Of a stretch of 64,000 bases of DNA, positions 6,154 to 43,200 are shown piece after piece. Position 1 is the stretch's first letter; each line of letters begins with the position of its first letter. This DNA comes from Tildeniella nuda ZEHNDER 1965/U140 (GTDB taxonomy: Bacteria; Cyanobacteriota; Cyanobacteriia; Leptolyngbyales; Leptolyngbyaceae): NCBI GenBank assembly GCA_019358895.1, contig JAHHIG010000002.1, forward strand, positions 62,001-126,000, given 5' to 3'. The position numbers and the translations under genes were made by a program. Under the pieces are notes generated by a model, which worked only from the letters and a program-made list of their open reading frames with translations, was not told the DNA's origin and did no database searches.

Positions 6154-6534
6154 CTACGCCACGCCCGCTTCCTCAGTGCGGTTGGGAAAGGAGACTTCCA
6201 GCACAACGCAGCCAATGTCCGTTTTGAAGGGTCCGTGTAACTCACCCGGTGGTCTACTGGCATAATGACCGCTCTCTAGCCACAGATCAAAGGCTTCGTC
6301 ATACAGCCGACCGCTCACTACAAAAATCTCTTCTGGGTAAGGATGGCATTTGCCGCCATAAGGAGTCGTATCGGCACCAGGATAAAACCGCGTCAAACGG
6401 GTATATTCACCAGTCGTTTCATCCCGGCTCAACGTCAGTTCCTCTGCCACGTTTTCCAGCCCCTTGAGCGGTTGCCATTGTCCCTTGTGAGCTGCACTTA
6501 ACGGATTCCAGTAGGTGATAGTGGTCTTTGGCAT
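6154..6534 (-). CDS. Cupin-fold protein, copy 1 (ChrR-like)
   Basis: This 126-residue protein has one cupin domain. The region CHPYPEEIFVVSGRLYDEA supplies the H-x3-E metal-binding part, and the second cupin motif is at PPGELHGPF. It resembles ChrR-like and DUF4437 small cupins, some of which bind zinc; the substrate is unknown. The second residue block is nearly identical to the cupin at 27745-28119 (SGRLYD, ESGHYASRPPGELHGPFKTD), so they are recent paralogues, one inside and one just outside the suspected element. In the first motif copy 1 has KCHPYPEE where copy 2 has KWHSYPEE. Confidence 0.8.
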   Translation of the reverse strand: MPKTTITYWNPLSAAHKGQWQPLKGLENVAEELTLSRDETTGEYTRLTRFYPGADTTPYGGKCHPYPEEIFVVSGRLYDEAFDLWLESGHYASRPPGELHGPFKTDIGCVVLEVSFPNRTEEAGVA

Positions 6535-6619: not shown

Positions 6620-7189
6620 TTACCAGACGATGCGATCGTACCGGGTGGGATTCGCAGCTGTATACCTGACCGTGTGCTGAATGTTCTTGTGTCCCAAATA
6701 CGCCTGAATGTCTCTGGTGGGTAGCCCCTGTTCTGCCAGATAATACCCGCAGGCATGGCGCAGCATGTGCGGATGCACCGAGAGCGGTAGTGCTGCCACC
6801 TCACCGGAGCGCTCCACAATCTTGGCAATCGCCCCGGTACTCAGATGGTCTCCCCGCTCATTGGCAAACACATAGCTACTCTTGCCCTGGCTTTGCAGCT
6901 CCCAGAGCGCCTGGATCTCATCCTCTTGCAGCCGATGGATACCACTTTCACTCTTCTTCAGCCGCGTGATGTTGATCGTCCGGGCATCAAACATCACCGC
7001 ATCCCAGCGCAAGAGACATGCTTCTCCCGCTCGTAGCCCATGCCGGAACAACATTAAGAGCAGAGTGCGATCGCGCAATCTGTAGCGTCCTCGTTCTCCA
7101 GCGGCTTCGATTAACCGTTTCACTTCTGCTGGGGTCAAATACTCTCGACTGCGGTAAGCCAGATTTTTCTTTCGTCCAAGCGTAGACAT
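6620..7189 (-). CDS. Tyrosine recombinase, short FimB/invertase-like type
   Basis: The product is a catalytic-domain-only tyrosine recombinase of 189 residues. The signature residues are visible: R in the segment RHGLRAGEACLLRW, a beta-hairpin K in RLKKSESG, the HxxR box HPHMLRH, and the final box GHKNIQHTVRY with H and the nucleophile Tyr. The length matches FimB/FimE-type and small plasmid resolvases, not phage integrases with an arm-binding domain. ATG 7189 is preferred because an upstream in-frame ATG at 7225 lies inside the lox-like inverted repeat at 7204-7237. It may resolve plasmid dimers, invert a segment, or have helped integrate the element. Confidence 0.85.
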   Translation of the reverse strand: MSTLGRKKNLAYRSREYLTPAEVKRLIEAAGERGRYRLRDRTLLLMLFRHGLRAGEACLLRWDAVMFDARTINITRLKKSESGIHRLQEDEIQALWELQSQGKSSYVFANERGDHLSTGAIAKIVERSGEVAALPLSVHPHMLRHACGYYLAEQGLPTRDIQAYLGHKNIQHTVRYTAANPTRYDRIVW

Positions 7190-7203
7190 GGAATGACTTG
7201 CAC

Positions 7204-7237
7204 AACTGTCCGTAAAATAGCTCATTTACGGACAGTT
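7204..7237. other. lox-like recombination site (13-bp arms, 8-bp spacer)
   Basis: AACTGTCCGTAAA at 7204-7216 and its exact reverse complement TTTACGGACAGTT at 7225-7237 flank an 8-bp asymmetric spacer, ATAGCTCA (7217-7224). The arm-spacer-arm sizes equal those of loxP, although the sequence is different. It lies 14 bp upstream of the recombinase start, the usual place for the enzyme's own core site. It could instead be an operator for that gene. Confidence 0.65.
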
Positions 7238-8056: not shown

Positions 8057-8241
8057 AAGTATCGAGCTTCTCTAGTTAGTGTAGTCACTGCGATCGCTTC
8101 TTCCCATTACAACAAGCCAGGTTGGGTAACAGGACAAGGGTTTACATCGATAAAGGGTAGAAGGTCATAGCAACGTCGAAGCTTGCATAGCAAATTAAAT
8201 ACCTGTTCTGGACTAGGCACTTCAGGTGTGGCAATTTCACT

Positions 8242-9051
8242 TCAGTCTTTCTGCATCAAAATTGATAAGAACTCTGAGACCACTTCACGAGGGCGAATCA
8301 TGCAATCTTTAGCCGTGAAGCGAACGGTGGGCACTCCAGAACGAAGTAAGACACGATCGCGGGCGTAGTCTCGAATCGTTTGCGCTCCCTCCATGTGATG
8401 CCCCCCGTCCACTTCCAGGATGAGGCATCGACCCTGATAAAACGCCATAAAATCGGCTTCCACTCGTCCAGTTAGCTGACTACCGCTGACCAGAGTGCTT
8501 TGCAATCCCACTCGACCACGAGCATTAGCAAAAAATAGAATTCCAGTTTGATCGAGGGCTTCGGCAATTTTCACCTCTGCCTCTGAACGTAGGTATAGAC
8601 CACCCCATTCTTTGAAGTAGTTTCCACCTGTGGTGCTTTCTTCAGAGGCAGGAGGGGTGGTTGTTAGGGCTGTTCCTGCCAAAATGGTTTCGATGTATGG
8701 CTTCAGTTCATCGGTACAAAAGATGTGCCAGTGATGCTGAGTGTTCGCTCCGCCTGGTTGCCCTGCGTATGCCAGATGCAGGGTTTCTTTGGCTTCAAAG
8801 TAGAAGCCAGGACGAGTTTTGTTGTAAAGCTTCTGGCTAATGGTTTTCCTAAACTTTTGCCGTTGTTTTCCCTCTAGCTGCCTAGCTTGAGGGCTGAAAG
8901 CCATGATGACATCAACGAGCTTTCTAGTTTGGACTCGAAACGAATGAGGTAATTTCCCCCCGATCGCAACAATGGCATTGCTCTTGGTGCTACCCTGCTC
9001 GCCTCCAAGATCAAAATCGATAGTAGCCCCATTGTTTTCAATCGGATTCAT
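8242..9051 (-). CDS. DUF559/Vsr-like endonuclease-fold protein
   Basis: This 269-residue protein has a C-terminal half resembling the DUF559 and very-short-patch nuclease fold. FYQGRCLILEVDGGHH gives the E-V-D-G-x-H-H part of the active site, followed by R-D-Y-A-R-D-R-V-L and VPTVRFTAKD. An upstream acidic residue lies in RVEADFMAF. The N-terminal 150 residues are unassigned. Proteins of this type act on DNA or are orphan restriction-like nucleases; the substrate is unknown. It lies five bases downstream of a small secreted-protein gene (9057-9428) and is probably co-transcribed, although the two products seem functionally unrelated. Confidence 0.65.
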   Translation of the reverse strand: MNPIENNGATIDFDLGGEQGSTKSNAIVAIGGKLPHSFRVQTRKLVDVIMAFSPQARQLEGKQRQKFRKTISQKLYNKTRPGFYFEAKETLHLAYAGQPGGANTQHHWHIFCTDELKPYIETILAGTALTTTPPASEESTTGGNYFKEWGGLYLRSEAEVKIAEALDQTGILFFANARGRVGLQSTLVSGSQLTGRVEADFMAFYQGRCLILEVDGGHHMEGAQTIRDYARDRVLLRSGVPTVRFTAKDCMIRPREVVSEFLSILMQKD

Positions 9052-16886: not shown

Positions 16887-17066
16887 ATGCCTAAAATAGG
16901 GAAACGTAAACCGGAACATCTGAATGTGAGGCTGCCAGTGGCAGAGATGGAAGCCCTCAGACGCTACTGCGAAGAAAATCAGCGTAGCCAGTCTGATGTC
17001 ATTCGAGAATTCATTCGCAGCCTGAAGCCTACCGTTGCATCTTCCGATAGTCCCAGGGTTTCATAG
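16887..17066 (+). CDS. Ribbon-helix-helix repressor (59 aa)
   Basis: This small RHH protein contains the strand HLNVRLPVAEM and helices EALRRYCEENQRSQSDVIRE, FIRSL. It is a close paralogue of the product of 13207-13389. Its last 38 bases overlap the 3' end of the convergent thermonuclease gene (17029-17631). A 19-bp dyad directly upstream suggests autoregulation. Unlike its paralogue it has no operon partners downstream, so the rest of a once similar operon may have been lost. Confidence 0.75.
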   Translation: MPKIGKRKPEHLNVRLPVAEMEALRRYCEENQRSQSDVIREFIRSLKPTVASSDSPRVS

Positions 17067-17631
17067 CAGTCGGGTCACTCCACACACCCAACTTTTTCCT
17101 CTGGGCAATTGCCTCCATCTTGGCGAACCCACTCCCATTCGGGCATCTACTAGCGTATTTCGCATAGACGTAAGCCATTCCCGCCAGCAACTGTGACTCA
17201 TTCAGCAGCTTCTCTTCTTCTGGCTGCTGCGGGTTATAAGCCGGAACATAGAGTTCAGCCACCTTACGACCATAGCGATCGGTGTCACTAATGTACAAAA
17301 TCACCTGATTTCCAGCGCTAGCAAGAAGCGACTGCAAATGATCTCGGCTCTGCACCCCTAACGGTTGGCTCAACTCCGGCGCATCGATGCCGCACAACCG
17401 CACCTTCACCTTCTGCCAGCCTAGCTTTACGGTGATAGTGTCCCCGTCATGCACATTGATGACCGTTGCCAACTCGCTTTGAGCACGGGGCAACAATCCT
17501 GGTGCTGGTACAGGTCGGTCATCACCTGAGCGCCCTACCTGCGACTGCTGCCACAGCGAGGAACCGTAGAGCCAACCCACGATCGCTATCGCCGCTATAG
17601 GCAGAAGATTCCACAGCGCTTTCGCTTTCAT
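17029..17631 (-). CDS. Thermonuclease (SNase-fold), membrane-anchored or secreted
   Basis: This 200-residue protein has an N-terminal hydrophobic segment (LWNLLPIAAIAIVGWLYG) acting as signal anchor, a short linker, and an SNase domain from about residue 55. Calcium- and phosphate-binding motifs are present: VHDGDTITV, VRLCGIDAPELSQPLG (catalytic R, D and E) and DRYGRKVAEL (second catalytic R). It ends with CPNGSGFAKMEAIAQRKKLGVWS and PWDYRK. ATG 17631 is preferred over 17706 because the signal segment follows it directly. It is a non-specific nuclease acting outside the cytoplasm, for scavenging or defence. Confidence 0.8.
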   Translation of the reverse strand: MKAKALWNLLPIAAIAIVGWLYGSSLWQQSQVGRSGDDRPVPAPGLLPRAQSELATVINVHDGDTITVKLGWQKVKVRLCGIDAPELSQPLGVQSRDHLQSLLASAGNQVILYISDTDRYGRKVAELYVPAYNPQQPEEEKLLNESQLLAGMAYVYAKYASRCPNGSGFAKMEAIAQRKKLGVWSDPTAMKPWDYRKMQR

Positions 17632-17727
17632 TCCGTAGCTTCCCCGATGTCTTTTAGATGGGTTGGTGAATACAGGTTTTAGAGTGCCCAAATGCGGGAC
17701 TCTCACTTTACCCCTATCGATTCATCT

Positions 17728-18360
17728 ATGAACAACACTCTTGTGAGGAAGGCAGCCGCAATTCTCGGTCTAACGTTGGCGATCGCGCCTTTTCTAACTC
17801 AACTCTCTGCCTCCGCTCAAACGGCTCAGTATGCACCGTTTAAGGATGCCGAGGGCAATGTCTATCTTGCACCTGGTAGCGCCAACGCCGAAGTCGCCGT
17901 CACCTTTGGGTCGGTCGAAAAGCAAAAAGATGTCAAGGCAGATGCCTGTGGCACTGTTCACCTGACCCCTTCCACTGCGATTCCCTTGTCTACTGCCTTT
18001 AAGGTCGATGGTGTCACCGTCAATCCTGCTACCCTCAGCTCAGACATTCTACCCAAGTGCGTGAATGGCAGTCTGGAGCAGCCTCGCGCCACTAACTTCA
18101 AAACGGCAGACGGCAAAATTCACATCGTCGGCAAAACCGCAGGCTCTTACTACAAGCTTGCCTACAATGCGGCTGTGATTCGGAAGGTGAAATCTAACGC
18201 CTGTGGCATTGCGCGGATGGGCAGCAGTGCGTCTACACCACTCCTTGCCACAACTGTTTTTACGGTAAACGGGATCGACTACACCTATGGGCAACTGTCT
18301 ACAAAGACTCCCTGGCGCTGTTCCAATGGGGTGACGTATCAACCGTATGGCGGCAGCTAG
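17728..18360 (+). CDS. Secreted protein with two internal repeats
   Basis: This 210-residue protein has a signal peptide (cleavage near LSASAQ). It is followed by two copies of a roughly 80-residue beta-rich unit: FKDAEGNVYL...DACGTVHL...LPKCVNGS and FKTADGKIHI...NACGIARM...PWRCSNG. Each unit has a conserved Cys pair (ACG and C.NG), probably a disulfide. The family is unrecognised, and the role is probably extracellular or periplasmic. It diverges from the thermonuclease gene, and a strong terminator follows at 18385-18408. Confidence 0.6.
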   Translation: MNNTLVRKAAAILGLTLAIAPFLTQLSASAQTAQYAPFKDAEGNVYLAPGSANAEVAVTFGSVEKQKDVKADACGTVHLTPSTAIPLSTAFKVDGVTVNPATLSSDILPKCVNGSLEQPRATNFKTADGKIHIVGKTAGSYYKLAYNAAVIRKVKSNACGIARMGSSASTPLLATTVFTVNGIDYTYGQLSTKTPWRCSNGVTYQPYGGS

Positions 18361-21955: not shown

Positions 21956-22945
21956 CTACTCCTCCCCCGCACCCAAAACCAGCAGCTTGATCCGCGCCAT
22001 CTGCGCCCTTAACCTTGCCCACGTCTTAAACGTCTCCGCCTTCTGCCTGTCCAGCGCGTTCAGGTTGCCCAAAAACTGCGTCGTCTCGCCCTGTCCAAAC
22101 CGATAATCCACCTCAATCAAGCGGTGCCGTAGTACCTCGCGCTTTGAGATCTCCTGCGCCACCTGAAAGTCTCGCCGCAGTACTTCAAAGTCCAACACCT
22201 GCAACATCACCTGTTCCCGGATTTTGTCCGCCAGGTCAGCCCGTTGCTTCTCCACTTCTGCTACCTTCACCTGCAAGTCTGCGATCGCAATCTGCCGGGA
22301 CTGAGCCGCCGGATCGCCACCGATGGCATTGCGAAACAGCGGTACGCCAATCAACGAAAGGACTTCGTTAATCGCACCTGTGGGCTTGACAAAGAAATCA
22401 AACACCCGATCGAGTAATCCTCGCTTACGGGGTTGCTGCCCCTGTTGTACGGGTACGTCTTCCAGCTTCAGATAGCTCTGTACCAGCGGTTCAAATACGC
22501 CCAGCGCGATCGTCTTCTGGTTGTTCTTGCGGGCTTCTTCAATCTTGGTATTGATGACTTCAATCCGCTGGTCAATGGCTTGCAGCGTTTTAGACTTGGC
22601 AATCGCCGCCGTCTGCAACTGCCCAATGCACGTATCAGAAGCCTCCAGGCAGGGCAAATCACCCAGCATCGACTTCCACAAATCATCATTCACCCGCATC
22701 TGAATCAGCTTATCCAGCGAGTCACCCGCCGGATTCAATGGGTTCGCATCACCCTCTAGCGCGGCTGGCTCGTCAGTGGGCTCCGTTTCCGTCTGCTGGA
22801 CTGGAACTGGGGGAGACGGTTGCACTTGGGGAGACTTTGACTTCGCCAGGGCGTGAACTGTCATCAGTGACAACCAGCACCAGCTCAACAGCAAGGCTTT
22901 GGTCAGTCTGACCCTGGAACTTGAGACGCGAGATTTTGCCTGCAT
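21956..22945 (-). CDS. TolC-like coiled-coil exported protein
   Basis: This 329-residue protein has a signal peptide (LTKALLLSWCWLSLMTVHALA) and a Pro/Glu linker. Long helices follow with coiled-coil character (AIDQRIEVINTKIEEARKNN; ADLQVKVAEVEKQRADLADK). The C-terminal RHRLIEVDYRFGQGETTQF and LNALDRQKAETFKTWARLRAQ match the inner helices of TolC-type outer-membrane factors. It is shorter than TolC, so it may be a half-size or periplasmic relative. It is last in the operon that starts at 27390, and its first 173 bases lie within the 3' end of the HlyD-like gene in another frame. Confidence 0.55.
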   Translation of the reverse strand: MQAKSRVSSSRVRLTKALLLSWCWLSLMTVHALAKSKSPQVQPSPPVPVQQTETEPTDEPAALEGDANPLNPAGDSLDKLIQMRVNDDLWKSMLGDLPCLEASDTCIGQLQTAAIAKSKTLQAIDQRIEVINTKIEEARKNNQKTIALGVFEPLVQSYLKLEDVPVQQGQQPRKRGLLDRVFDFFVKPTGAINEVLSLIGVPLFRNAIGGDPAAQSRQIAIADLQVKVAEVEKQRADLADKIREQVMLQVLDFEVLRRDFQVAQEISKREVLRHRLIEVDYRFGQGETTQFLGNLNALDRQKAETFKTWARLRAQMARIKLLVLGAGEE

Positions 22946-23699
22946 ACGGACTCCTGACCGCTGAAAGTGTGGATAGCTGAGTTTCGACCTGAGATAACTG
23001 CCCCTCTAACTGGGCAAGTTCCCCCTGCTGCTGGATTTCTTGTTGCCGGAGCGCGATCGTCCGTTTGGACATTTCTAAGGAATGCTGGTACTCCTGAAAC
23101 TGACGGTCTGACATTGCCTTGGCTAACTTCCCCCGTGCCAGTTCCACTTCAGCTAACGCCTGGTCTACCTCACGTTGCTTTTGTTCAAGTACAGCTTGCT
23201 CATGGGGCACGGTCGCTTCTGGTACCTCATGCTTCGGCAGCGATTGAATCAGGTCTAACTTACGCTGCTGTTGTTCCTTCGCCTGCTGTACAGCCTTCGC
23301 CTTCAGTTTCAGCCGTTCCACATCGGCTACCTCACCCAACACTGAGGCAGTCGGTAAGCCGCTGACCTCTGGCACGGGTAGCATCATCTGAGCCTTGAGC
23401 CGTGCAATGCGTTGTGTCAACTCTCGCTGCTGGAACTCCAACCGTGTCCGATCGCGTACCCTGTCCGCCAGAATCTGACCGGGAATGACCGTATCGCCTT
23501 CCTTTACCTTCAGGTCATCAGGAGCCGCTAGCGTCAGCTTGATTTGAAAGCGTCGTTGTGGTGCGGTATCGACACTCTCAGGTACTACGGGAACTGTCGC
23601 GCTGGGAGTGGGCAACGCTTGCGACACTGCCTGAGCCGTGCAGCCCGAAAGCACCAGGGCAATACCCCACCAGCAATAACGAGCCACGTACTGTCTCAC
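22773..23699 (-). CDS. HlyD-like lipoprotein (periplasmic adaptor type)
   Basis: In this 308-residue protein a lipobox LVLSGC at residues 15-20 places the lipid-modified Cys at 20. The order is a short biotinyl-lipoyl half (LKVKEGDTVIPGQILAD), a long coiled-coil hairpin (RTRLEFQQRELTQRIARLKAQ to QLEGQLSQVETQLSTL), and a returning lipoyl half (AVRSPYAGKISRLKFQGQTD). A Ser/Pro-rich tail closes it. This is the layout of membrane-fusion proteins, without the usual beta-barrel domain. Its start overlaps the end of the HerA/TraD-like ATPase gene by 4 bp, so it belongs to the same operon, and it may link that ATPase complex to the TolC-like partner. Confidence 0.65.
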   Translation of the reverse strand: MRQYVARYCWWGIALVLSGCTAQAVSQALPTPSATVPVVPESVDTAPQRRFQIKLTLAAPDDLKVKEGDTVIPGQILADRVRDRTRLEFQQRELTQRIARLKAQMMLPVPEVSGLPTASVLGEVADVERLKLKAKAVQQAKEQQQRKLDLIQSLPKHEVPEATVPHEQAVLEQKQREVDQALAEVELARGKLAKAMSDRQFQEYQHSLEMSKRTIALRQQEIQQQGELAQLEGQLSQVETQLSTLSAVRSPYAGKISRLKFQGQTDQSLAVELVLVVTDDSSRPGEVKVSPSATVSPSSSPADGNGAH

Positions 23700-24796
23700 T
23701 GAAGTCTCTCGTAATAAGGAACAATCTCAACCTGTTTAGCATCCGTCCCCAACCGACAGAGCGCCTGGAGCGGTCGCAGTCCAGCCACCCTCACCTCAGC
23801 AAACCGGAACTTCTTACCCACCTTTGACACCTCCGTTTGATCGACTGGCAGCACCAGCTTGGTACTAGAGTTCCCAATCACATCTGCCGACAAATGCCGT
23901 TCGGATTGTGATGCCAGCACCAGCGCCAAGCCATACTTCCGACCATCGGCAATGATGCGATCGCAGGCTGACCCCGTACCTTTGGGCATCTCCTTTGCCT
24001 CGTCGATAAACAGAAACGTGCGCGGTATTTTCCCTGCCATCTCACCTAACAGTCGGTGATTGTCCATCAGTTGCTTTGCCAGTGACTCAGCCGCGATCGA
24101 CTGAATCGCCGGGGGTAGCTTGTGCAGGTCAACCCGAATATGTTTCGCATCCATCGGAAACTGTGAGCGACTGAACACGCCATACTGGAACGTTGCCGCC
24201 AGTTTCAGCTTCAGCCGTTGCGACTCCTTGCAACCTTCCTCAATGCGAGCTACCAGTTCCGCTTCGATGTGGGCGAAGTTGGGCGCTTCCCTTTTCCAGG
24301 TCGCCTGGTCGTCCTGCACGATACCCTGCTGCCGATAGCACGTTCCAATCACATCCAGTAACATTCCTTCCTGATTCGGTCCCATCTGGAGCGATTTCTT
24401 CAGTACCGCTGCCACCGCGATCGCCTGCAAGTTGGGTCCGCCTCCCTCTGGATCAAGATTCACCGTGAGTGGGTTAATGCCCCACGGAGAAGCCATATGC
24501 AGCGGGTAAACCATCTCACCAGCGATATCCTGGTCGCCGTGGAAGTCAATTAAAATTTTTTGTGAGCCTATATATATAGTTCGCAGCGCAAAACAAATTC
24601 CTTTGAGGGTTTGCGTTTTGCCACTGCCAGACGCGCCAATACAGACGATATGAGCATTCGGTAAGGTTTCGGGATTCCAATAGGTGTCCTTCCCTAAAAG
24701 AACGCCTGCGGTCTGGTTCTCTTCCGTCTGAGCAGTGCGTCTCACTGGCAGTGTCGCAACAGGGGGTAAGGGCTTCTCGACTTTACGGCTGAACAT
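23696..24796 (-). CDS. HerA/TraD/VirB4-like P-loop ATPase
   Basis: In this 366-residue protein Walker A is GASGSGKT at residues 54-61. KILIDFHGDQD follows at about 81-90 (the HerA-type D-x-H-G-D strand), with Walker B TFLFIDEA at 260-267 and LVLASQSERHLSADVIGNSS containing the sensor Gln. This is the motor fold of HerA, FtsK, TraD and VirB4, which move DNA or protein through membrane pores. No membrane helix is present, so it would dock to a membrane partner, perhaps the AAA protein (25817-26638) or the YdjM-like protein (24783-25817), whose gene it overlaps by 14 bp. Confidence 0.75.
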   Translation of the reverse strand: MFSRKVEKPLPPVATLPVRRTAQTEENQTAGVLLGKDTYWNPETLPNAHIVCIGASGSGKTQTLKGICFALRTIYIGSQKILIDFHGDQDIAGEMVYPLHMASPWGINPLTVNLDPEGGGPNLQAIAVAAVLKKSLQMGPNQEGMLLDVIGTCYRQQGIVQDDQATWKREAPNFAHIEAELVARIEEGCKESQRLKLKLAATFQYGVFSRSQFPMDAKHIRVDLHKLPPAIQSIAAESLAKQLMDNHRLLGEMAGKIPRTFLFIDEAKEMPKGTGSACDRIIADGRKYGLALVLASQSERHLSADVIGNSSTKLVLPVDQTEVSKVGKKFRFAEVRVAGLRPLQALCRLGTDAKQVEIVPYYERLQ

Positions 24797-25817
24797 GGAT
24801 GGTCCTCACGATTAGGTTTCCGGTCGCAAAGGCATCGCCCAACACTGCCAGCAGTTCACCAGGGGAGGCAGATTCCAGCTCCAGCACCTCACCAAATTGC
24901 TGCAAGGGTTGGAAGTATTGTTTGGAACCATGCAGCCTGATATCGGCACGATCGAGCGGGTCAACGGTGAGCCTGCCTGAGATGTAGGTGTTGGGCAATG
25001 TCAACGAGGTGATTGCAGCTCTAACGGATTGGCTATCAAGGAACACTTCGCGGGTCAGGAGGCTGATGGTTGCCCCGACAGCAACGTGCACCTTCTCTGG
25101 TGCAATCTGTGCCTCTGGACTTGTGCCAACGCGATACAGCCGTGCCTGAGTGTCCTTCACCAACAAATCTTGATTGACCGTACCGATCACCTCGTAGTGA
25201 CCCGCGATCGCTTGCTGGGTGATGGTATGCCGCCCCTGGATTTGAGCAAAGATCTGATGCTTGCTACTCTCCCGCTGGTAGATCTCCATTGCGCCAGACT
25301 GGGAGCCAAGCGCCTGGTCAAACGTTCGCATGATGCCACCCGCACTGTTGATGTTGATGCTAACGACTGCGACAAAGACCAATACCGCCAGTACGAGCGC
25401 TTCCGCTTTGCTGCCAGTAGATAGTCTGAGCCGAGGGTTTGCTGGAATGACCAGCCTCGCCTGATTGGGGAAGAAGGCAGCAACACCAGACTTACTGAAC
25501 ACATCGCCAAACCAGCCCATCCAATAGCCAATCACCAACGCCCAGTAGAACTCAGGTTTACCCCAGAACCAAAGCGGCAGCAAGGCGATCGCGAGCAGCC
25601 CCGTCACCAGGAAGCTATGGGTCACTGAACGATGAGGAAAGCGAGACTCCAGCCAGCGACTGACCGGGTAGAAGATTCTGCCGGGGACGCTGCCTGTCGT
25701 ATCGACATCGGGAAACTGGGACGCAACCGCAGCCGTACCCAACACCCAGGGGTCAGCCGTCCCCATGAAGAGAGAGGTACTGGCGATCGCCAAGGCAGCG
25801 TGAGTGACAGTAAGCAT
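24783..25817 (-). CDS. YdjM-like (DUF457) membrane metal-dependent hydrolase with extension
   Basis: This 344-residue protein has an N-terminal half that matches YdjM/DUF457: H6, the D-x-D in QFPDVDTTG (residues 37 and 39) and the HRSVTHS box (H62 and H67) are probable metal ligands, among several membrane helices (LVTGLLAIALLPLWFW; ALVLAVLVFVAVVSI). The C-terminal 180 residues are a soluble beta-rich domain not found in standard YdjM. ATG 25817 is preferred: it overlaps the stop of the upstream AAA gene as TAATG. In this operon it may act as a lipid- or phosphate-handling membrane subunit. Confidence 0.7.
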   Translation of the reverse strand: MLTVTHAALAIASTSLFMGTADPWVLGTAAVASQFPDVDTTGSVPGRIFYPVSRWLESRFPHRSVTHSFLVTGLLAIALLPLWFWGKPEFYWALVIGYWMGWFGDVFSKSGVAAFFPNQARLVIPANPRLRLSTGSKAEALVLAVLVFVAVVSININSAGGIMRTFDQALGSQSGAMEIYQRESSKHQIFAQIQGRHTITQQAIAGHYEVIGTVNQDLLVKDTQARLYRVGTSPEAQIAPEKVHVAVGATISLLTREVFLDSQSVRAAITSLTLPNTYISGRLTVDPLDRADIRLHGSKQYFQPLQQFGEVLELESASPGELLAVLGDAFATGNLIVRTIHVQP

Positions 25818-26638
25818 TAACCGAGCCTCGCTGATTTCTTGGGCAGTGAGTAGAAGAGCAGTCGCATAATGCCCACGACCACGGTGAGGATGCCGCCAAT
25901 GAGGTACATCGAGGTACTGTTTAAGCCGATGCCAATGACACGCACGATGCCAAAGACCATGAGCGCGGCAATGAGGTAAGGCGTACCATCCACCCACTGC
26001 TGATGATCCGGTGCCGTGTCTTCGAGTCCCAGGTATTCTTCCTGAATGACCCGCTTTGCCAGCATGGGATTACCCCCGCAGCGCTGCTGTAGTCCTGCCA
26101 GTTGAGCCGTCCCGATACTGAGTCCCAGCTCCAGAGAGTGGGCTGCCATCAGATCCCGAATCTGCACATCGCTGAGGGGCTTGAGTTCCATACGGGGCAG
26201 TTTCAGAAAGATGTCCTTTGCCGGGGGAGCAGTCGCTAGTAGCAGCAGTGATTGGTGTTGTTCGTGCAGAATCTCTAGAAACCGCCGAAACTCTGGTGTG
26301 TAGTGGTGGGTATCATCGCAGATGAGAAAGGCTGTTTGCTCACGCAGAAAGTCAGCGATCGCTGTTCGTAGCCCTACAGTGGTGAGGTTCTTTCCCGCCA
26401 GATCCTGAGTCTCAACGCCCAACTGCTCCGCAAGGCGAGTTAATAGCTGTTTGGTACTGGCTGGTTGAGCCACTGCGACCAGGTAGCCCTCATCCTGTAA
26501 CTCTTGAGCGATCGCCTCACCCAGAATGCTCTTACCGATACCAGACTCACCCACTACCAGCAAACTGGAACTGGAACGTAGTACCGCTGTAATTCGCCGT
26601 TGCTCGGTCGTCCGGTAGATCTTTAAGCTGCTTGACAT
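25817..26638 (-). CDS. AAA ATPase with two C-terminal membrane helices
   Basis: This 273-residue protein is an ExeA/TniB-like ATPase. Walker A is GESGIGKS at residues 30-37, Walker B is LICDD at about 105-109, and LLLLATAPP is the sensor region. A C-terminal winged or lid helix part (GGNPMLAKRVIQEEYLGL) precedes two membrane segments (about 222-240 and 245-264). TniB/ExeA ATPases bind DNA or assemble secretion machines; membrane anchoring here favours the ExeA-like role. Its start overlaps 26623-27075 by 16 bp, and the downstream gene starts within its stop codon. Confidence 0.75.
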   Translation of the reverse strand: MSSSLKIYRTTEQRRITAVLRSSSSLLVVGESGIGKSILGEAIAQELQDEGYLVAVAQPASTKQLLTRLAEQLGVETQDLAGKNLTTVGLRTAIADFLREQTAFLICDDTHHYTPEFRRFLEILHEQHQSLLLLATAPPAKDIFLKLPRMELKPLSDVQIRDLMAAHSLELGLSIGTAQLAGLQQRCGGNPMLAKRVIQEEYLGLEDTAPDHQQWVDGTPYLIAALMVFGIVRVIGIGLNSTSMYLIGGILTVVVGIMRLLFYSLPKKSARLG

Positions 26639-27075
26639 GGTTCTACCAACAGTCCACGTTGACGTTTCCAGTGAGCGATCGCACGACGGCTACAGGCTTC
26701 CCCAGTCTGCTTTTTTACATAGGCAATGAGCTGTGAGTAGGTGGTGAGACCCTGCACCCAGGCTTCATCCAGTAGACCTTCTACCAGCGCTGCCCGCTCA
26801 CGCCGAGGCTTCTGCTCCACAACCATCAATTTCGCTGCTGTCTCAGCCACCATCACCATCTCCCGTTCTGTTGGTGAAAGCGCTGCTGTAGCAGTCACTA
26901 CGATCGTTTCTACAGCCGTTGCTTCGCAGGGTGGCAGTGCTGGCAGCTTTAGTTGCTGTGTACGCCGTCGCACCAGTCGCTCCATGCCAGTAAGGGTGAT
27001 CGCTTCCGCCAGGGCGATTCTCGGTTTCAACCAGCACCACAGTTGAATCGTTAAGGCTTTCCAGTCCCGTTTCAT
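26623..27075 (-). CDS. Hypothetical protein with C-terminal helix-turn-helix
   Basis: In this 150-residue protein the N-terminal part is helical and hydrophobic (TIQLWCWLKPRIALAEAITL) but too charged for a clear membrane span. The C-terminal part (TYSQLIAYVKKQTGEACSRR, AIAHWKRQRGLL) looks like a helix-turn-helix with a DNA-recognition helix. ATG 27075 is chosen; a TTG at 27108 would add 11 residues. It is second in the operon after the winged-helix regulator. It may couple DNA recognition to the AAA ATPase, much as MuA/TniA-associated proteins do, but this is inference. Confidence 0.55.
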   Translation of the reverse strand: MKRDWKALTIQLWCWLKPRIALAEAITLTGMERLVRRRTQQLKLPALPPCEATAVETIVVTATAALSPTEREMVMVAETAAKLMVVEQKPRRERAALVEGLLDEAWVQGLTTYSQLIAYVKKQTGEACSRRAIAHWKRQRGLLVEPCQAA

Positions 27076-27135
27076 GCCGTCTCGTACCTCTTCGTGTTGA
27101 GTGATCAACGGGTACTTGCCAAGCGCAACGAGCCA

Positions 27136-27390
27136 CTAGGCAGAAAGCACGGATTCACAGGTGAAGGTTTGGCGAAGGTAGTACCGCCGTTGTCTGCCTT
27201 CGTGTTGCGATTTGATTAAGCGCTCAAAGATAAGATTTTCGGTCTGTCGCCGTACCTGCTCGTAGGTCAGGGTTCCGTTGGACGCTGCCACAATCTCGTT
27301 GCGGGTCAGCCCGTCTCGTTGTCTCAGTACCGCTAAGACGTGCGATCGGGTCTGTGCGCCCTGGTCGGTGGTTTGATAAATGCTGAACAT
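27136..27390 (-). CDS. Winged-helix regulator, first gene of the seven-gene operon
   Basis: In this 84-residue protein helices around RSHVLAVLRQRDGLTRNEIVAAS and YEQVRRQTENLIFERLI, plus a wing (KSQHEGRQRRYYLR), form a compact winged helix. A dyad, AGGGTGAA-N7-TTCACCCT (27396-27418), lies five bases before the ATG on the minus strand, so the protein probably represses its own operon. The operon begins only about 180 bp from the tRNA-Pro remnant that seems to mark the element end. Confidence 0.65.
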   Translation of the reverse strand: MFSIYQTTDQGAQTRSHVLAVLRQRDGLTRNEIVAASNGTLTYEQVRRQTENLIFERLIKSQHEGRQRRYYLRQTFTCESVLSA

Positions 27391-27395
27391 AGCAA

Positions 27396-27418
27396 AGGGT
27401 GAAGTAATGTTTCACCCT
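27396..27418. promoter_or_regulatory. Operator-like dyad of the seven-gene operon
   Basis: AGGGTGAA (27396-27403) and TTCACCCT (27411-27418) form a perfect 8-bp inverted repeat with a 7-bp spacer, directly before the winged-helix gene's start. Confidence 0.6.
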
Positions 27419-27595
27419 TGCTGCCAGTTACAGGAGGTGGAGGTCAATCGTGAAAATGCCGATTTAAGCGGGGTTTTATGCCCTGTGGTTAGGCGTGAAA
27501 TGGAGATTGTGTGAAAGATTGAGATGGTTTTGATATACGTATCTATTGAGAATTCCTGCAAACCTTATATACGAAACGTTCAGGCTGGTAGGTTC

Positions 27596-27642
27596 CTACT
27601 TTGGGGTAGTAGGGGTCGTGAGTTCGAATCTCGCCGCTCCGA
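27596..27642 (+). tRNA. 3' half of tRNA-Pro(GGG), probable attachment site
   Basis: The sequence folds as anticodon stem CTACT/AGTAG with loop TTGGGGT (anticodon GGG), variable loop GGGTC, T stem GTGAG/CTCGC with loop TTCGAAT, 3' acceptor strand CGCTCCG and discriminator A. The matching 5' acceptor CGGAGCG and a valid D stem are missing: upstream is only a faint CAGGCTGGTAG remnant of a D loop. It therefore cannot be a working tRNA. The 3' side continues into a terminator, as behind a native tRNA gene. This is the arrangement left at one end of an element integrated in tRNA-Pro. Confidence 0.8.
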
Positions 27643-27646
27643 TCGT

Positions 27647-27744: not shown

Positions 27745-28119
27745 CTAAAGATGTTCGTTAGCTTGATGAGGAAAGGATACTTCAAGCACCACACACCCAC
27801 TGTCCGTCTTGAATGGTCCATGAAGCTCACCAGGTGGTCTGCTGGCGTAATGTCCAGTTTCTAGCCACAGATCAAACGCCTGGTCGTAAAGACGACCGCT
27901 CACCACAAAGATCTCTTCGGGGTATGAGTGCCATTTGCTGCCGAGGTGCGTCGTATCTGCACCGGGATAAAACCGAGTGAGACGAGTATATGCGCCAGTG
28001 CTGTCGTCTTTGCTCAAGGTCAATTCTTCCGCGATCGCTTCCAGCCCTTCGATCGGCTGCCATTGTCCGCTATTGGCTGTACTGAGTGGATTCCAGTAGG
28101 TAGTAGTAGATTTTGCCAT
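27745..28119 (-). CDS. Cupin-fold protein, copy 2 (ChrR-like)
   Basis: This 124-residue single cupin has the first motif in KWHSYPEEIFVVSGRLYDQA and the second at PPGELHGPF. It is a close paralogue of 6154-6534. It lies next to the tRNA remnant on the chromosomal side, so it may be the original copy and the element carries the other. Substrate unknown; a zinc-binding ChrR-like role is possible. Only one base separates it from the upstream membrane-protein gene, with which it is probably co-transcribed. Confidence 0.8.
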   Translation of the reverse strand: MAKSTTTYWNPLSTANSGQWQPIEGLEAIAEELTLSKDDSTGAYTRLTRFYPGADTTHLGSKWHSYPEEIFVVSGRLYDQAFDLWLETGHYASRPPGELHGPFKTDSGCVVLEVSFPHQANEHL

Positions 28120-28931: not shown

Positions 28932-31900
28932 TCAACCACGGCAAAGCGCTTGATTCTGAATCGTTTGGGGATGGCTGGCGAAGTACTCCTGTAGCCAGTT
29001 GCAGCCTTGAGTTAGTAGTTCATCCAACTTAGCAAGGTGCCATAGCTGCGTCTTACCTGTTTCGTTTACGGTGACAAGGTACCCGCCGTCCTGACTAAAC
29101 TCGATTCCCCGAAGTTGGTTTGGGCTGGCATTAAACTGCGCCAGTTGTCGACCAGATAAATCCCAAAGGCGGGCAGTATTATCTTCGCCAGCCGTAGCAA
29201 GCTGTTGACCATCGGGGCTAAAGCTAATGCCTACAACGCTTCCCCAATGACCGTTTAGTTGTGCTAATTGCTTGCCAGAACGATCCCATAGACGGGCGGT
29301 GCCGTCTTCGCCCGCCGTTGCCAATTTTGTGCCATCGGGGCTAAAGCGGACGCGTAAAATCCAGCTAGAATGCCCTTGCAACTGTGCCAATTGCTTGCCA
29401 GAACGATCCCACAGGCGAGTAGTGCCGTCTTCGCCTGCTGTTGCGATCATCTGACCATCGGGACTAAAGCTTGTGCTGACCAGCCAGCGATGCCGCCCAT
29501 TTAGCTGAGTGATCAAAGCGCCGGACGCATCCCACAGCTTAGCCGTACCGGATGACCCATCTACACCAACCGTGATCAACTGTTTACCGTCGGGACTGAA
29601 GTCAAGACTCAAAATGCGACCTTGCGCGCTTTGCCACTGGGCGATCGCTTGACCAGACAGATTCCAGATTTGAACCGTACCATCCTCAGCAGCAGTCGCA
29701 AATCGTTGAGCGTCTCGACTAAAGCTGATGCCTCTGATAACGTGCTGCGGGTTTTGAAAGTGGGCTAACGGCTGTCCAGACAAATGCCATAGCTGAATGG
29801 AGCCATTTTCGCTGGCGATCGCCACTTTGTCTCTGCCTGCACTAAAGCCCACGCTGCTTACGGCTGAAACGCCGCTCGCTGGTGATTCGCCAAATGCTTT
29901 TGTCTGTGCCGATTGTTGCCTCGCTACGTCCCAGAACCGCACAGAACCGTCATCGCCTGAAGTTACCAGCATGGTTCCATTTGGGCTAAAACTCACATTG
30001 CCCACTGGCCCGCGATGCCGCTTGAGGACGGTCAGCGGTTGCCCGGTGAGCGTCCATAGTCGAATGGTCCCGTCTGCACCCGCCGTCGCAAGGCGCTGTC
30101 CATTGGGGCTGAAGCTAATGCCCAACGCCCTTCCCTGATGTGCCTTCCACTGGCTTTTACCCTGCACCCGCTGCGGATCGGTTAAGTCCCAGAGCTGCAC
30201 CATATCATCAGAGCCTGATGTTGCCAGGTATTGTCCATCATGGCTGAAGCTAACGCTTAAAACGCGCCCCTGATGCCCATTCAACTGGGCAAGTTGCTTT
30301 CCTTGAAAGTCCCAAAGGCGAGTGGTGCCATCCAGCCCAACGGTTGCGAGGTAAGGACCGCGAGGGCTAAAGCTAATGCCGAAAATCCACCCCTGGTGAC
30401 CGTTAAGCTGAGCGATAGGCTTTCCGGTTAGGCTCCAAAGGCGGGCAGTATTATCTTCGCCAGCGGTGGCAAGCATCTGGCTGTCGGGGCTAAACGTCAC
30501 GCCGAGCACCCGACCGCGATGCCCCTTAAACTGCTGGAGCTGTTTGCCCGTGAGATCCCAAAGACGAGCGGTGCCATCTTCGCTAGCGGTGGCGATCGCA
30601 CGACCGTCTGGGCTGAAGGTAATGCCTAGAATGCGTCCATTGTGTCCTCTGAATTGGGCAAGCTGTTTGCCAGCTAAATCTGAAAGACGGATGGTACCGT
30701 CTTCACCTGCTGCCGCAATTAATGCACCAGCAGGGCTGAAGTTGACATCCGCGATCCAGCCTTGACCGAGGTTAATTTGGTTACGTTCATGAATGCTGCC
30801 TAGAATTGTTTGGAGGGCAAGCAGCGGACTGGTGACCGGGTAGCCTGGCGAGTTATGAGTGCTAGCGATCGCGCTCAGCTCTCGCCCTGTTTGCATCGCG
30901 GCAATGAGGGCATCGATTTCGCTAATCTGATTGGCTTGAAATTGTTGGAGTGTGTCCAGCGCAGTTGCTTCCAGGCTTTTGATTTTGAGGCTAGCTGTCG
31001 TGCTTCCCAGGCTGGTTTGAGCACGGAGCGCTTGCAGTTGCGCCTGCTGTCGAATTTGATCGGCGCTAAGGGCTTTTGCTTCGGCTGTTTGGGCATCGTT
31101 TTGGGCAAAGGCGACCCGTTTACGGGCTTCCAGGAGATGGCTTTGCAAGATTGCCAGATCTGCCTGTGTGTTAACCATGGTTTGCTGGGTTTGCCGCTGG
31201 GACTGCTCGGCAATTTTGACTTTGGACTCGGCAAAGCGCATGTTGGCAGTTGTCACCTGAAGCTTTTGTTCGGCACCCTGAAGTTCCGTTTGAGTCGCCA
31301 GCATTCTTTGGTTCGCTTTGGATGCCAGAATACCTGCCGCGATCGCCAGCGTCAATGTACCCGCAAGAATGACAAAGCCTTTATGAATCGTTCGTCTGGC
31401 TTGCCGCTGAGCATCGGCTAACAGCCGCGTCACCTGTTTTTCTGCTTCTAAAGCGATTTGCTTGTCTAATGCCTGACTTGCCACCAGGAATTGGTAATCG
31501 GCATCGCTCAAGCTTTTGTCTACTGCCCAACGCTGCGCGTCTTGTAGCGCTGCCCCCCGCAGCAGGTGGGTTGCATTCTGGCAATTGGAACTCATCCAGG
31601 CATCCAGTGCATCCGCATAAGGGCGATGTCTGGCAAGAATGGCGGTGACCCAGTTCTGGTTGAAGATAGAGGCGTAGATGCGGTTACAGATGGTGAGGCT
31701 GCCATGCTGGTCTACCACAATGCCAGAGAGCCTGAGTTCCATGCGTTCAGCACCGTCGTCAGCCGATAGCTTTTGCCGCTGCAAAATCTTTTGATAACAG
31801 CCCAGGATACGATTGGTGCGCTGTGGGTTTCGCAGCAGACGATCGCGAATGGTCTTTAAGTGCGGTGGTTCATCCTGCGCTTCCCAGTTGTCAATGATAT

Positions 31901-32741
31901 GGGTGTGTACCAGTTGCTCAATCCACTGTGCTTCTTGCCCGGCAGGAATTGAAGTAGACGTTGCGTGAACCAGCTTGCACAATTTTTGGGTTAAGAACGG
32001 CTGTCCGCCTGTCCATGCCAGCACCTCCTGGAGCATGGTGGGAGGATCGTCAGCGGTCGATCGCAACCCTTCAAGCAGTGGCTGTGCTTCGTCCAGTTGA
32101 AACCCGTTCAGGGGGATGGCTTTACCAATGTTGAATGGCGTGCGGCTTTTATCTTGAATCAGATCGGATGGTGTTGCTACGCCCAGTAGCGCAAAGGTGA
32201 GGCGCTGGTACTCCGGGCGATCGGCACGCTTGTTGTAACAGGTGCGAATCAGCGCAAAAAAGTCGTCGATCAAAAAATCTAAGCTGAGCACACTATCGAT
32301 TTCGTCGATAAAGATGGCGATCGAGCGTTCACTGTCAGCCAATAGCACGTCTTCCAAAAACTTGCCCAGGCGCTGGACGGGAGGCAGAAAGGCATGTTCT
32401 CGCCACCAGAGCCGCAAGTTGATGGGGTGAGCCAGGTCGAGGCTACTTTCGAGCGCGTAGGCAACCCCGGCGTACCATTGTTCGGGGCTAACGTTGCGGT
32501 TGCCAATGCCAGAGACATCGATCGCGGCACAAATCACGCCTTCTGCCTGGAGCCGCTGCATCGTTTGAATCCGCAGGCTCGATTTACCCAATTGCCGCGA
32601 ATTAAGTACGTAGCAGAATTCACCCGCTTTTAAGCCTTCATACAGGTCACGATCGGCTTGCCGTTTGACATAGCTCGGCGCATCCAATGGTAGGCTACCG
32701 CCAACCTGATATTCATAGCTCAACTCTGCTGTTGCTACCAT
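28932..32741 (-). CDS. AAA-like ATPase with transmembrane/coiled-coil linker and 14 WD40 repeats
   Basis: This 1269-residue protein has an N-terminal AAA-like (PF14516-type) ATPase. The P-loop is [10 protein letters not shown] at about residues 47-56 and Walker B is [12 protein letters not shown] at about 140-151. A membrane helix ([18 protein letters not shown], about 452-470) and a long coiled coil (470-600) follow. Fourteen WD40 repeats (about 660-1230) then form two seven-bladed propellers; several repeats are almost identical ([12 protein letters not shown]), suggesting recent expansion. Such proteins are large cyanobacterial sensors whose ligands are unknown. Confidence 0.85.
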
Positions 32742-40214: not shown

Positions 40215-43200
40215 TCATACACCTGCTTGCGATCGCCCCACTACTTCCGATTCCACTGCGCCTAAGGCTTTCAGCGAGGATTTTTGTGCTTCTGTGAGTC
40301 CGGTTACGCCTGTCATATCCATGCCTTCGTAGAGGCGATCGAACTTGAGTTGTCGCAGCCGACTGCACTTTTGTACATCCCACAGTTGCACCGAGCCATC
40401 TTCACTACCGCTGATCAACATTGTGCCATCGGGACTAAAGGCAAGGGCGCGAATGGCATCTGTGTGCCCCCAGCAGAGCGTATCCATACAGGCTCCAGTA
40501 CCGATCTTCCAGAGCTTTACTGTCGTGTCACCGCTGCCGCTGGCGAGGGTGCATCCATCGGGACTGAAGGCGATCGCATACACCTGCTTGGTATGTCCCT
40601 TCAAGATTTTGAGACACTGACCTGTGTGCACATCCCAGAGCCTGATGGTTTGATCTTCGCTCCCGCTGGCGAGAGAGTGTCCATCGGGACTGAAGGCGAT
40701 CGACCAGACAATTTCTTTGTGGTCTGCCAGCGTTTTCACACACTGTCCCGAAGCGACATCCCATAGCTTTACCTGGCTGTCAGCGCTGCCGCTGGCAAGG
40801 ATTTTTCCATCGGGGCTAAATGCTGCTGCCCAAACCCAGTGAGTATGCCCTTCCAATGTTTGGAGGCACTGTCCTGTATGCACATCCCATACTCGGAGCG
40901 TGCGATCCTCGCTGCTGCTGGCAAGTAAGCGACCATCGGGGCTAAACGTGACAGTCCACACCCAGTTCGTATGTCCTTCCAATGCTTTGTAGCGGTTGTG
41001 CTGATGGCTGTCTTGAAGATTCCAGAGACGAATGGTGTAGTCGCTACCTCCAGTAGCGAGGATTGGCTCACGGGGACTGAAGGCGATCGATCGCAACCGT
41101 CCTTTGCTTTTTGCATCTTGCAGAGTGTCACGCTTCTCTTGATAAACATCCCAAAGTCGCACAATATTATCGTCGCCGCCACTGGCAACGGTTTGCCCAT
41201 CAGCGCTGAAGGCAACTGCATAGACACCCCGCGAATACCCCTGTAACACGTTGAGGAGCGTCCCATTGGTTGCATCCCACAGCCGCACTGCCTGGTCATC
41301 GCTGCTGCTCAAAAGCGTGCGTCCATCGGGGCTAAAGGAAATGGACCAGACCTGGCTGATGTGTCCGGTTAGCGTCTTCAGGCATTCGTTAGCTTTAATC
41401 CCAGATTGAATGTTCCAAAGCTTAATCGTGCGGTCTTCGCCACAGCTAGCAAGGGTTTTACCATCGGGGCTAAAGCGCACTGCATAGACTTTTTTGCTGT
41501 GTCCTCTGAGGGTCTTAAAGCACTGCCCAGTTTGCACATCCCAAAGTTTAACCGTCTGGTCTTCGCTGCTGCTGGCAAGAATTTGCCCATTAGGGCTGAA
41601 GCGGACGGAGTAGACCTGGTTGGTGTGACCCAGCAGTGTTTGCAGGCAATGTCCCTCACTATCCCAGAGTTTAATGGTGCCATCCGCACTGCTGCTCACC
41701 AGGCGACGTGGGTTCATCGGGTTAAAGGCAACTGACCAGACCCAATCAGTATGTTCTTTCAGCGTTGCAAGACATTCGCCGCTGCCTGCATTCCAGAGTT
41801 TGATGGTTTTGTCTTCGCTGGCGCTGGCGATCGTGGTGCCATCGGGACTAAACGCCACGCTACAAACTTTGCTGGTGTGCTGATTAAGGGTATGTAAACA
41901 AGCACCCGTCTGCACGTCCCAGATGCGAACAGTGGAGTCGGCGCTGCCGCTGACCAGCAGCCTGCTATCGGGGCTGAAGGCAAGTGCCCACACCCATATA
42001 GTGTGTCCTTTATAGAGCTGGATTTGCTGGTTGTCAGCCGCTTGCCAGAGACGGATTTCGCCATCGCCCATCCCAGTTGCAAAGACTTTGCCATCGGGGC
42101 TGTACTGTACAGAAACCAAGCTGGCTAGTCCTAGTATTTCGGCAAACACAGAGCCAGTCAGATCGGCGTTGGTAAAATAGGTGTCCTGTAACTTGACGTT
42201 TTTCAAATAGGCGCGCCAGATGGTCAGTGCAGAAAAATCGCGCCCGCTGAGATCCGCCTGGGGGTAACTGCTTTGAAGCTGGCAGAGCAGATTGATCAGA
42301 TTGCCAATCGCGTACCCTTTTCTAGGTAGCGGCTGTTTGCGCAGGCGATCGAAACTACGGCGGATCTGTGCTTCAAGATCCGTTTCATATAAATCAAGGA
42401 GTGTTGTCTTGATTGGCTCCAGAATTTCTTTCTCTTGTGCTTTACGAATATGGTCTAGAGATGCTGCTTTAACGAGTGAGTAGCTATTAAGAAACCATAG
42501 TTTTCTCCAGCTTAGAACTGTCTCATCCGGTTGCTCAAGCAGTTGCTCAATTTCGGTAGTGACCTGCTCGACCAACTGTTCAGTGATGTATTCCATGATG
42601 ACAGGCAGTTGACTCAGTTTGCCTGAATCTGGCATACCCACAATGAGCGATCGACGTGATAGTGACTCCACTGCTTCTAACAAGCGCATGGATGATTCAG
42701 GGATGGGAATATCGTTCCTCAAATCTGCTAATGAAACAGGGTCACGATTGATGGCAAGCCAATACATCACTCGTTTTTCTAAATTAGATAACCGCTCAAA
42801 CTGTTGCTCTAAAAGGGTGCGAATATCGCCATAAACAGCCGTTTTTTGTTTGATCTGGGCAAGAAATTCGGCGATCGTATTATTAAATAAGTTATAAATT
42901 GTGGTCGCAACAATTTTGAGCGCCAAAGGGTTGCCAGAGTAGCGATCAACTAACTCACTCAGTTCGGCATCAGAGCCACCCAGCCCTTTATCTTTGAGGA
43001 TCAACCGTGCTTCCTCCTGGTTCAGTCCATCCAGTTGCAGCACCTTTACTGGAAGGTTTTTGCCTTCCAGAGCAGCGGCATCTTTGGGCTTTTCACGACT
43101 GGTAAGCAGAAGGCAGCTTTGATGTGCGGCTTCACCCAGTTTTTTGAATAGGTAGCCATACATTTCATAGCCATCTTTGTATTCACCTGCGCGATCGTAA

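Follow-up and report, generated by a model that had tools for sequence, protein, structure and literature searches.

A stretch of 64,000 nucleotides (nt) from the cyanobacterium Tildeniella nuda ZEHNDER 1965/U140, here called the window, carries a seven-gene cassette at the right end of an integrative element; the window corresponds to positions 62001–126000 of contig C11 in a genome of 6.08 Mb. The cassette recurs on plasmids of many cyanobacteria, and we tentatively favour the reading that it encodes one envelope-spanning machine, borne by plasmids and integrated elements, which would send element DNA outward without a relaxase, as in Thermus transjugation. The single complex, its DNA cargo, the direction of movement and the role of each protein are what we infer. 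What is new is the assembly, its mobile setting and a half-sized TolC-like protein; each part lies in or near known families.

The preliminary description of the window had proposed a seven-gene operon joined by overlaps or short gaps, and a check of the open reading frames (ORFs) agreed, locating all seven on the minus strand from 27390 down to 21956. In reading order they encode a small winged-helix-like regulator (P1), a protein with a helix-turn-helix-like (HTH-like) C-terminal domain (P2), an AAA_22 ATPase (P3), a YdjM-type membrane hydrolase (P4), a HerA/TrwB-type pumping ATPase (P5), an HlyD-like lipoprotein (P6) and a TolC-like protein of the outer-membrane-efflux type (P7). The overlaps are 16 nt between P3 and P2, 14 nt between P5 and P4, 4 nt between P6 and P5 and up to 173 nt between P7 and P6.

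Recurrence of the cassette

Searching named genomes with P4 alone gave 83 relatives, and 80 loci were kept. The 37 that were counted have a complete P4 with 2.5 kb or more upstream and 5 kb or more downstream; the 43 others had a short P4 (15) or short flanks (28). Beside P4 in the 37 loci lie P3 (30), P6 (29), P7 (29), P5 (19) and three further families, namely an HTH-type protein H0 (23), an SNase-type nuclease (17) and a secreted repeat protein, SP (13). P3, P6 and P7 occur together in 24 loci and are joined by P5 in 14, including locus L139, where the pump gene overlaps the hydrolase gene. This recurrence of neighbours is far beyond chance. A neighbourhood search had been proposed earlier, with rarity in other genomes taken to speak against the set; on the plasmids of many cyanobacteria, however, the genes regularly lie side by side.

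Plasmid records give the same families from other starting points. A tblastn search with P4 matched 68 of 72,556 plasmid records; a P3 query matched 43, of which 39 are among the 60 P4 records listed of the 68, and a P7 query from Nostoc matched 25, 23 of them among those 60. P5 matched 145 plasmid records; many of these matches are to general relatives, and 37 of the records have a conjugative type. Cassettes from P3 to P7 are carried by pSYSX of Synechocystis 6803, pANSO36C and pNOS7524.01, and on Microcystis p1 the ATPase P3 is separate from P4–P7. The hydrolase, SP and the nuclease each lie at two places on pSYSX (L030 and near 65 kb), which suggests that its module is duplicated. On pAQ5, a gene of ~57 codons (L031 2966–3136) has a beta-lactamase prediction in PLSDB that looks mistaken. 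Outside the phylum the cassette genes are also neighbours in Acidobacteria contigs, and a reduced form occurs in Thermus, Gammaproteobacteria and one archaeal plasmid. Plasmids bearing P3 and P4 together come from Nitrosococcus, Allochromatium, Methylobacter, Thermus and Thermococcus barophilus. Between the two genes Thermus has a TolC-family protein that the P7 profile does not match, and in Thermococcus, the single archaeal record, a NEW3-domain protein follows P4 instead. At 1e-10 the pump was present in 7 of 97 genomes of relatives, and at 1e-30 in 17 of 386 from the phylum; the two samples overlap, and both include the window's own genome. A phage origin was considered and rejected: among 50,697 phage records the pump matched one, weakly, and viral_contigs contained no relative of either the pump or the hydrolase.

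The protein distances of the neighbours correlate with those of P4 (Spearman 0.865 for P3 over 73 loci, 0.662 for P5, 0.417 for P6 and 0.358 for P7, each with Mantel 0.001); H0 and the nuclease fall within this range, also at 0.001, and SP correlates weakly (0.212, Mantel 0.043). Shared host descent contributes to these values, and some of the loci come from the same strains.

The proteins, their fusions and further members

The ATPase P3 (25817–26638) matches AAA_22 at 9.6e-15, better than ABC_tran (22.1 bits, below the cut-off of 25), has hydrophobic membrane segments at its C-terminus and can be aligned from bacteria to one archaeal plasmid. P4 (24783–25817) probably starts at the ATG at 25817, which lies within the earlier-starting mechanical ORF (24783–25997) and has 1 nt in common with the P3 stop. 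P4 is a member of the YdjM family (PF04307, 2.6e-19), and six residues (H6, D37, D39, H62, H67 and D105) are invariant in an alignment of 52 sequences; these are putative metal ligands of a predicted hydrolase. The AlphaFold2 model (predicted local distance difference test, pLDDT, 90.7) has a helical membrane domain followed by a beta domain. Mean lysine plus arginine is 4.8 before and 2.1 after the last membrane segment. Because of this charge bias and the fusion of P4 to P6 in Thermus, the beta domain is probably periplasmic. The clearest likeness in VIA is that of this domain (P4 residues 165–252) to TrmB (Z 11.6, 85 residues), which does not settle function; the WYL and Hfq rows ranked lower, and the Foldseek list consisted mostly of spurious rows.

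The pump P5 (23696–24796) exceeds the cut-off of TrwB_AAD_bind (2e-7, 30.7 bits against 20.5), which makes it a coupling-protein-type ATPase, and no N-terminal membrane domain is apparent in its sequence. Profile searches of the PDB returned DptH (4.2e-19), HerA and TrwB. P5 also matches a phage terminase family (4.5e-12), and its relatives in PADLOC are defence ATPases (mad8, 3e-20; DndH, 1.5e-18). The NCBIfam matches to CedD (3e-10, 39.2 bits against 600) and CedB (4e-9, 35.6 against 700) are both below their cut-offs. Some pumps have a GIY-YIG domain inserted in the ATPase: in a scan of four long pumps, those of Stanieria (32.5 bits) and L081 (36.2) were over the cut-off of 22.6, that of Gloeocapsa (21.8) was just below it and for L082 none was listed. 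The genes concerned lie at 11699–13159 of L068, 5632–7107 of L081 and 10001–11416 of L011, the last just below the cut-off.

The preliminary assignments of P3, P4 and P5 thus have Pfam matches of their own, and those of P6 and P7 as HlyD- and TolC-like are weak in the window proteins and draw their support from relatives. In P6 (22773–23699) two half-lipoyl motifs flanking a coiled-coil hairpin were recognized by eye; Pfam is weak for this protein alone, the PDB profile search gave no membrane fusion protein (MFP), and Biotin_lipoyl_2 was matched by 4 of 35 HlyD-like members. P7 (21956–22945) has an N-terminal hydrophobic segment and a conserved cysteine pair. TolC has two repeats, and P7 by its length has one, hence the term half-TolC. 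At 0.01, 15 of the 29 TolC-like members match the efflux family OEP, the best of them at 1.7e-8, and the window P7 itself reaches 0.59. Its VIA matches to outer-membrane factors (OMFs) reach Z ~8, no better than those to BAR domains, and the PDB profile search returned nothing useful. An outer-membrane pore is predicted, and some P7 members may lack it. The Thermus TolC-family protein is over the OEP cut-off, matching once across the full profile length, which fits a single repeat.

Natural fusions join several of these parts. On Thermus plasmids P4 and an HlyD-like domain are one protein (YdjM 91.3 bits, lipoyl-type domain below cut-off); ten Thermus plasmids match, and on one of these the P4–P6 protein is split, one piece bearing the annotation HlyD family secretion protein and the other hypothetical protein. 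The C-terminal domain of P2 is found in one ORF with P6, at the P6 N-terminus, in several cyanobacteria and Acidobacteria-type contigs; the triple fusion at L123, known from a draft assembly, may be artefactual. The annotated P6 and P7 genes overlap by 35–92 nt in six of seven records compared, with no overlap in Calothrix NIES-4105. Since P4 and P6 are fused in Thermus and the P2 HTH domain and P6 elsewhere, the parts probably form one complex; the earlier proposal of one envelope-spanning machine gains from these fusions.

Clustering of neighbouring ORFs and hidden Markov model searches of 157 sequences, which include overlapping stretches of the same genomes, brought out H0 and SP; together with the exported SNase-type nuclease they belong to the module. 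H0 in the window (5581–6147, plus strand) was recognized as HTH-type by eye and matches its recurring family at 4.2e-25; the family is present in 78 of the 157 sequences, usually directly upstream of P3 outside the window. The nuclease (17029–17706, minus strand; PF00565, 1.4e-15) and the divergent SP gene (17692–18360, plus strand; assigned by family match) are neighbours, as elsewhere: their coordinates are at most 1.5 kb apart in 18 of 21 sequences having both. N-terminal hydrophobic segments were seen in 31 of 34 nuclease ORFs, the window's included, and in 33 of 36 SP ORFs. The SP family occurs in 32 of the 157 sequences, and two SP queries matched 10 and 12 plasmids, all distinct and all 22 among the 60 P4 records listed of 68; several come from near-identical Synechocystis strains, making fewer independent cases than 22.

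The regulator P1 (27136–27390, 84 amino acids; PHROG transcriptional activator, E 2.2e-4), formerly counted in the set, was found in 6 of the 157 sequences, some of them overlapping, and is therefore local and not core. Directly upstream of it a perfect 9+9 inverted repeat (27395–27419; one match against 0.02 expected) is a candidate operator and also sits upstream of P1 in a genome of the same genus. P2 (26623–27108) has its HTH-like C-terminal domain of ~56 amino acids recognized by eye, with no Pfam match.

The element and known transfer systems

The element measures ~42.3 kb and is delimited by a 48-bp tRNA-Pro repeat, with an integrase at the left end and the cassette at the right. Its right attachment site (27596–27643, plus strand) is an exact 48-bp copy of the tRNA-Pro 3' end. 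The intact tRNA-Pro(GGG) lies outside the window at 47338–47413 of contig C11, 42 kb from this copy, and is adjoined by a tyrosine integrase of 388 amino acids with an arm-binding domain, likewise outside the window. In a same-genus genome (G004) the site is empty: the left flank leads through a complete tRNA-Pro, and after 285 bp the right flank follows. The border suspected beside the operon is thus real, with the correction that it is an attachment copy; a true tRNA at this place was rejected, the tRNA-Pro called by ARAGORN at 27572–27642 being the 48-bp 3' copy joined to other sequence.

Genes of known conjugation systems were sought on 21 plasmids, several of which have only the reduced module. 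VirB4 (PF03135) was found on none of the 21 and nowhere in the window's genome, its control being positive in Caulobacter. Of the relaxases, PF03432 and PF08751 were over cut-off on 0 of 21 and PF01076 on 1 of 21 plasmids, these three being the only families searched; the controls were positive for PF03432 and PF08751, and in none of 14 control genomes for PF01076. The sole positive plasmid is that of Calothrix NIES-4105 (366 kb), and a PF03432 match in Gloeocapsa is below cut-off and interrupted by stops. The only PF03432 relaxase of the window's genome lies on another contig (C2), and none of the element proteins scanned, which cover part of its ORFs, resembles a relaxase. The relaxase check suggested earlier thus left 20 of 21 plasmids without the three families tested, and with VirB4 on none and a relaxase on one the module did not, on these tests, turn out to be a known conjugation or secretion cluster. 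The earlier remark that no named system has this set also held in the open-access literature searched: among the papers listed, one library yielded no description of the gene set, and for slr6008–slr6013 it gave a proteomics listing, an apparent misprint and an unrelated paper.

Several known systems share parts with the module. A conjugative type IV secretion system (T4SS) resembles it in the TrwB_AAD_bind domain of P5 and in being plasmid-borne, but differs in its VirB4, found on none of the 21 plasmids, and its relaxase, found on one of them. Tripartite efflux and type I secretion systems (HlyD/TolC) likewise have an MFP-like and an OMF-like protein encoded together; here, however, the engine would be the AAA ATPase with YdjM, the OMF has one repeat, the genes are mobile, and Pfam found no ABC, RND or MFS engine among all seven proteins of the cassette. 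A precedent is ICETh1 of Thermus thermophilus, which, according to two papers, needs neither relaxase nor T4SS, is integrated at the 3' end of a tRNA gene between 47-bp repeats, and donates DNA by an FtsK/HerA-type pump and a nuclease, uptake being left to the competence apparatus of the recipient (PMC5365140, PMC7767461). The window's element is similarly tRNA-integrated, with repeats of about that length, a tyrosine integrase as site-specific recombinase, a HerA/FtsK-type pump, a nuclease, no VirB4 in the genome and a relaxase only elsewhere in it. In ICETh1, the TdtA transjugation system, the nuclease is NurA-like and a restriction enzyme takes part; the nuclease found in the window's element is SNase-type, the module encodes an envelope conduit, and its pump is not universal; the words 'TolC' and 'hydrolase' do not occur in the main texts of the same two papers on ICETh1 (PMC5365140, PMC7767461). 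The Ced system of Sulfolobales has a related pump that works with membrane proteins; it is archaeal, and its CedB and CedD serve import (PMC11868833). P5 is far below the NCBIfam cut-offs for both, and archaea lack an outer membrane. A known defence system was also rejected: apart from LmuB for P6 (0.006) and C3a212 for the SNase, the PADLOC matches were no more than ATPase-level.

Other genes of the element were noted in passing. A second, short gene of the tyrosine-recombinase type lies at 6620–7225 (minus strand; PF00589, 3.1e-39), beside a cupin-type gene (6154–6534) whose DNA is 78% identical across 300 bp to that of another cupin gene just beyond the right attachment site (27745–28119) and absent from the G004 stretch examined; the pair suggests a further or composite insertion. 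The element also holds a NACHT protein with NNH2 and HEAT repeats (835–3966), of a type linked to defence, and a DUF559-type putative nuclease (8242–9051). Very long proteins that by eye resemble WD40 repeats, with NTPase-like N-terminal parts, are encoded at 28932–32741 and 40215–43901 of the window and at 8175–13826 of L048, and one such protein is located inside the element.

Readings of the module and their meaning

The preliminary description had left DNA, protein and glycolipid side by side as possible cargo. DNA is favoured because of the HerA/TrwB-type pump, the GIY-YIG domain in some pumps, the HTH domains and the exported nuclease, and the cargo as such is a deduction from these. In the proposed working, P3 would sit on the inner membrane and act with P4, whose periplasmic beta domain would dock the adaptor P6; P6 would meet P7, of which, as a half-TolC, about six copies would be needed for a TolC-sized barrel. 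Where present, P5 would feed DNA from the cytoplasm into the conduit, with DNA binding supplied by H0 and P2; the exported nuclease might trim or release DNA beyond the inner membrane, and SP might act at the surface. Uptake would fall to the recipient's ordinary natural competence, in the manner of Thermus transjugation. By analogy, the cyanobacterial module may donate DNA as ICETh1 does. A broader form of this proposal, possible though doubtful, is a new DNA-transfer machine in which the AAA ATPase, YdjM and an HlyD/half-TolC conduit let elements without relaxase or T4SS exit, the ATPase–YdjM core being common to two-membrane bacteria and at least one archaeal plasmid and the outer parts fitting the host envelope.

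Several observations weigh against DNA export. The chief difficulty is the missing pump: in 18 of the 37 well-covered loci none stands next to the hydrolase. A search at 1e-10 of 18 genomes with loci that lack a neighbouring pump (one such locus, L122, ends shortly past P4) left 14 with no pump of this family anywhere. The pump as a universal part was therefore rejected, and the core consists of the ATPase, YdjM, the HlyD-like protein and the half-TolC. P3 may be the main motor, with P5 added to it; otherwise the core exports something else. The lack of a relaxase is common in general: going by gene content under the current model, one study regarded 374 of its 424 cyanobacterial plasmids as immobile (PMC8600333), and a conjugative type was assigned to 2 of the 68 P4 records. 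Other plasmids carry YdjM relatives as well, the archaeal query matching 135 records, and SNase is common, being present in 8 of 14 control genomes; an exported nuclease equally suits DNA uptake or exclusion. The P7 model (pLDDT 70.7) is helical and without barrel strands, with low confidence where they are expected, and several P7 relatives have little sequence at that place. The N-terminal part of P4 is weakly like zinc phospholipase C (Z 4.9, root-mean-square deviation 4.4, 117 aligned residues), and a Thermus relative of P4 reaches 20.5 bits for Zn_dep_PLPC, below the cut-off of 26.8. Transfer by the module has not been observed.

If the core exports something else, it could be a plasmid-encoded tripartite exporter of protein or small molecules, comparable to type I secretion or drug efflux, with P3 and P4 as engine, SP or the nuclease as cargo and P5 as accessory. 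We consider this unlikely: it accounts for the MFP-like and OMF-like pair, the core without a pump and the tight linkage of SP, and P6 matches the HlyD protein of NHLP bacteriocin systems in NCBIfam (1.2e-4, below cut-off), but SP (33/36) and the nuclease (31/34) have hydrophobic segments of their own and need no type I route out of the cytoplasm, the cassette has no ABC, RND or MFS component, and the DNA-type pump, the GIY-YIG insert and the HTH fusions go unexplained. The frequency of the exported nuclease with the module (17/37 loci, 14/21 plasmids), the defence ATPases related to P5 and the fact that Thermus and cyanobacteria both include naturally transformable species also bring to mind an exclusion or anti-competitor device, in which nuclease and YdjM hydrolase would bind and degrade incoming DNA or neighbouring plasmids at the envelope and so shield the resident element. 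Such a device would not need the OMF/MFP conduit, however, and at 0.01 PADLOC has no match for P4, P7, SP or H0 and only LmuB (0.006) for P6, which leaves it rather improbable. The resemblance of P4 to zinc phospholipase C, in structure and sequence, would fit a system that modifies the envelope by vesicle release or surface remodelling, with YdjM acting on lipid and DNA leaving inside vesicles; nothing points to a lipid substrate, however, and the pump and HTH domains would have no place in it, so that we give this very little weight.

Export of element DNA, if that is what the module does, would matter for plasmids now regarded as stationary. A non-mobilizable type was assigned to 66 of the 68 plasmid records that carry the hydrolase, including pSYSX of the laboratory strain Synechocystis 6803, in which parts of the module can be deleted, and the module would offer such plasmids a route. 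It would also enlarge the small set of relaxase-free transfer systems and may provide a genetic tool for cyanobacteria. If the cargo is another, the cassette would still encode an envelope machine with an unusual engine.

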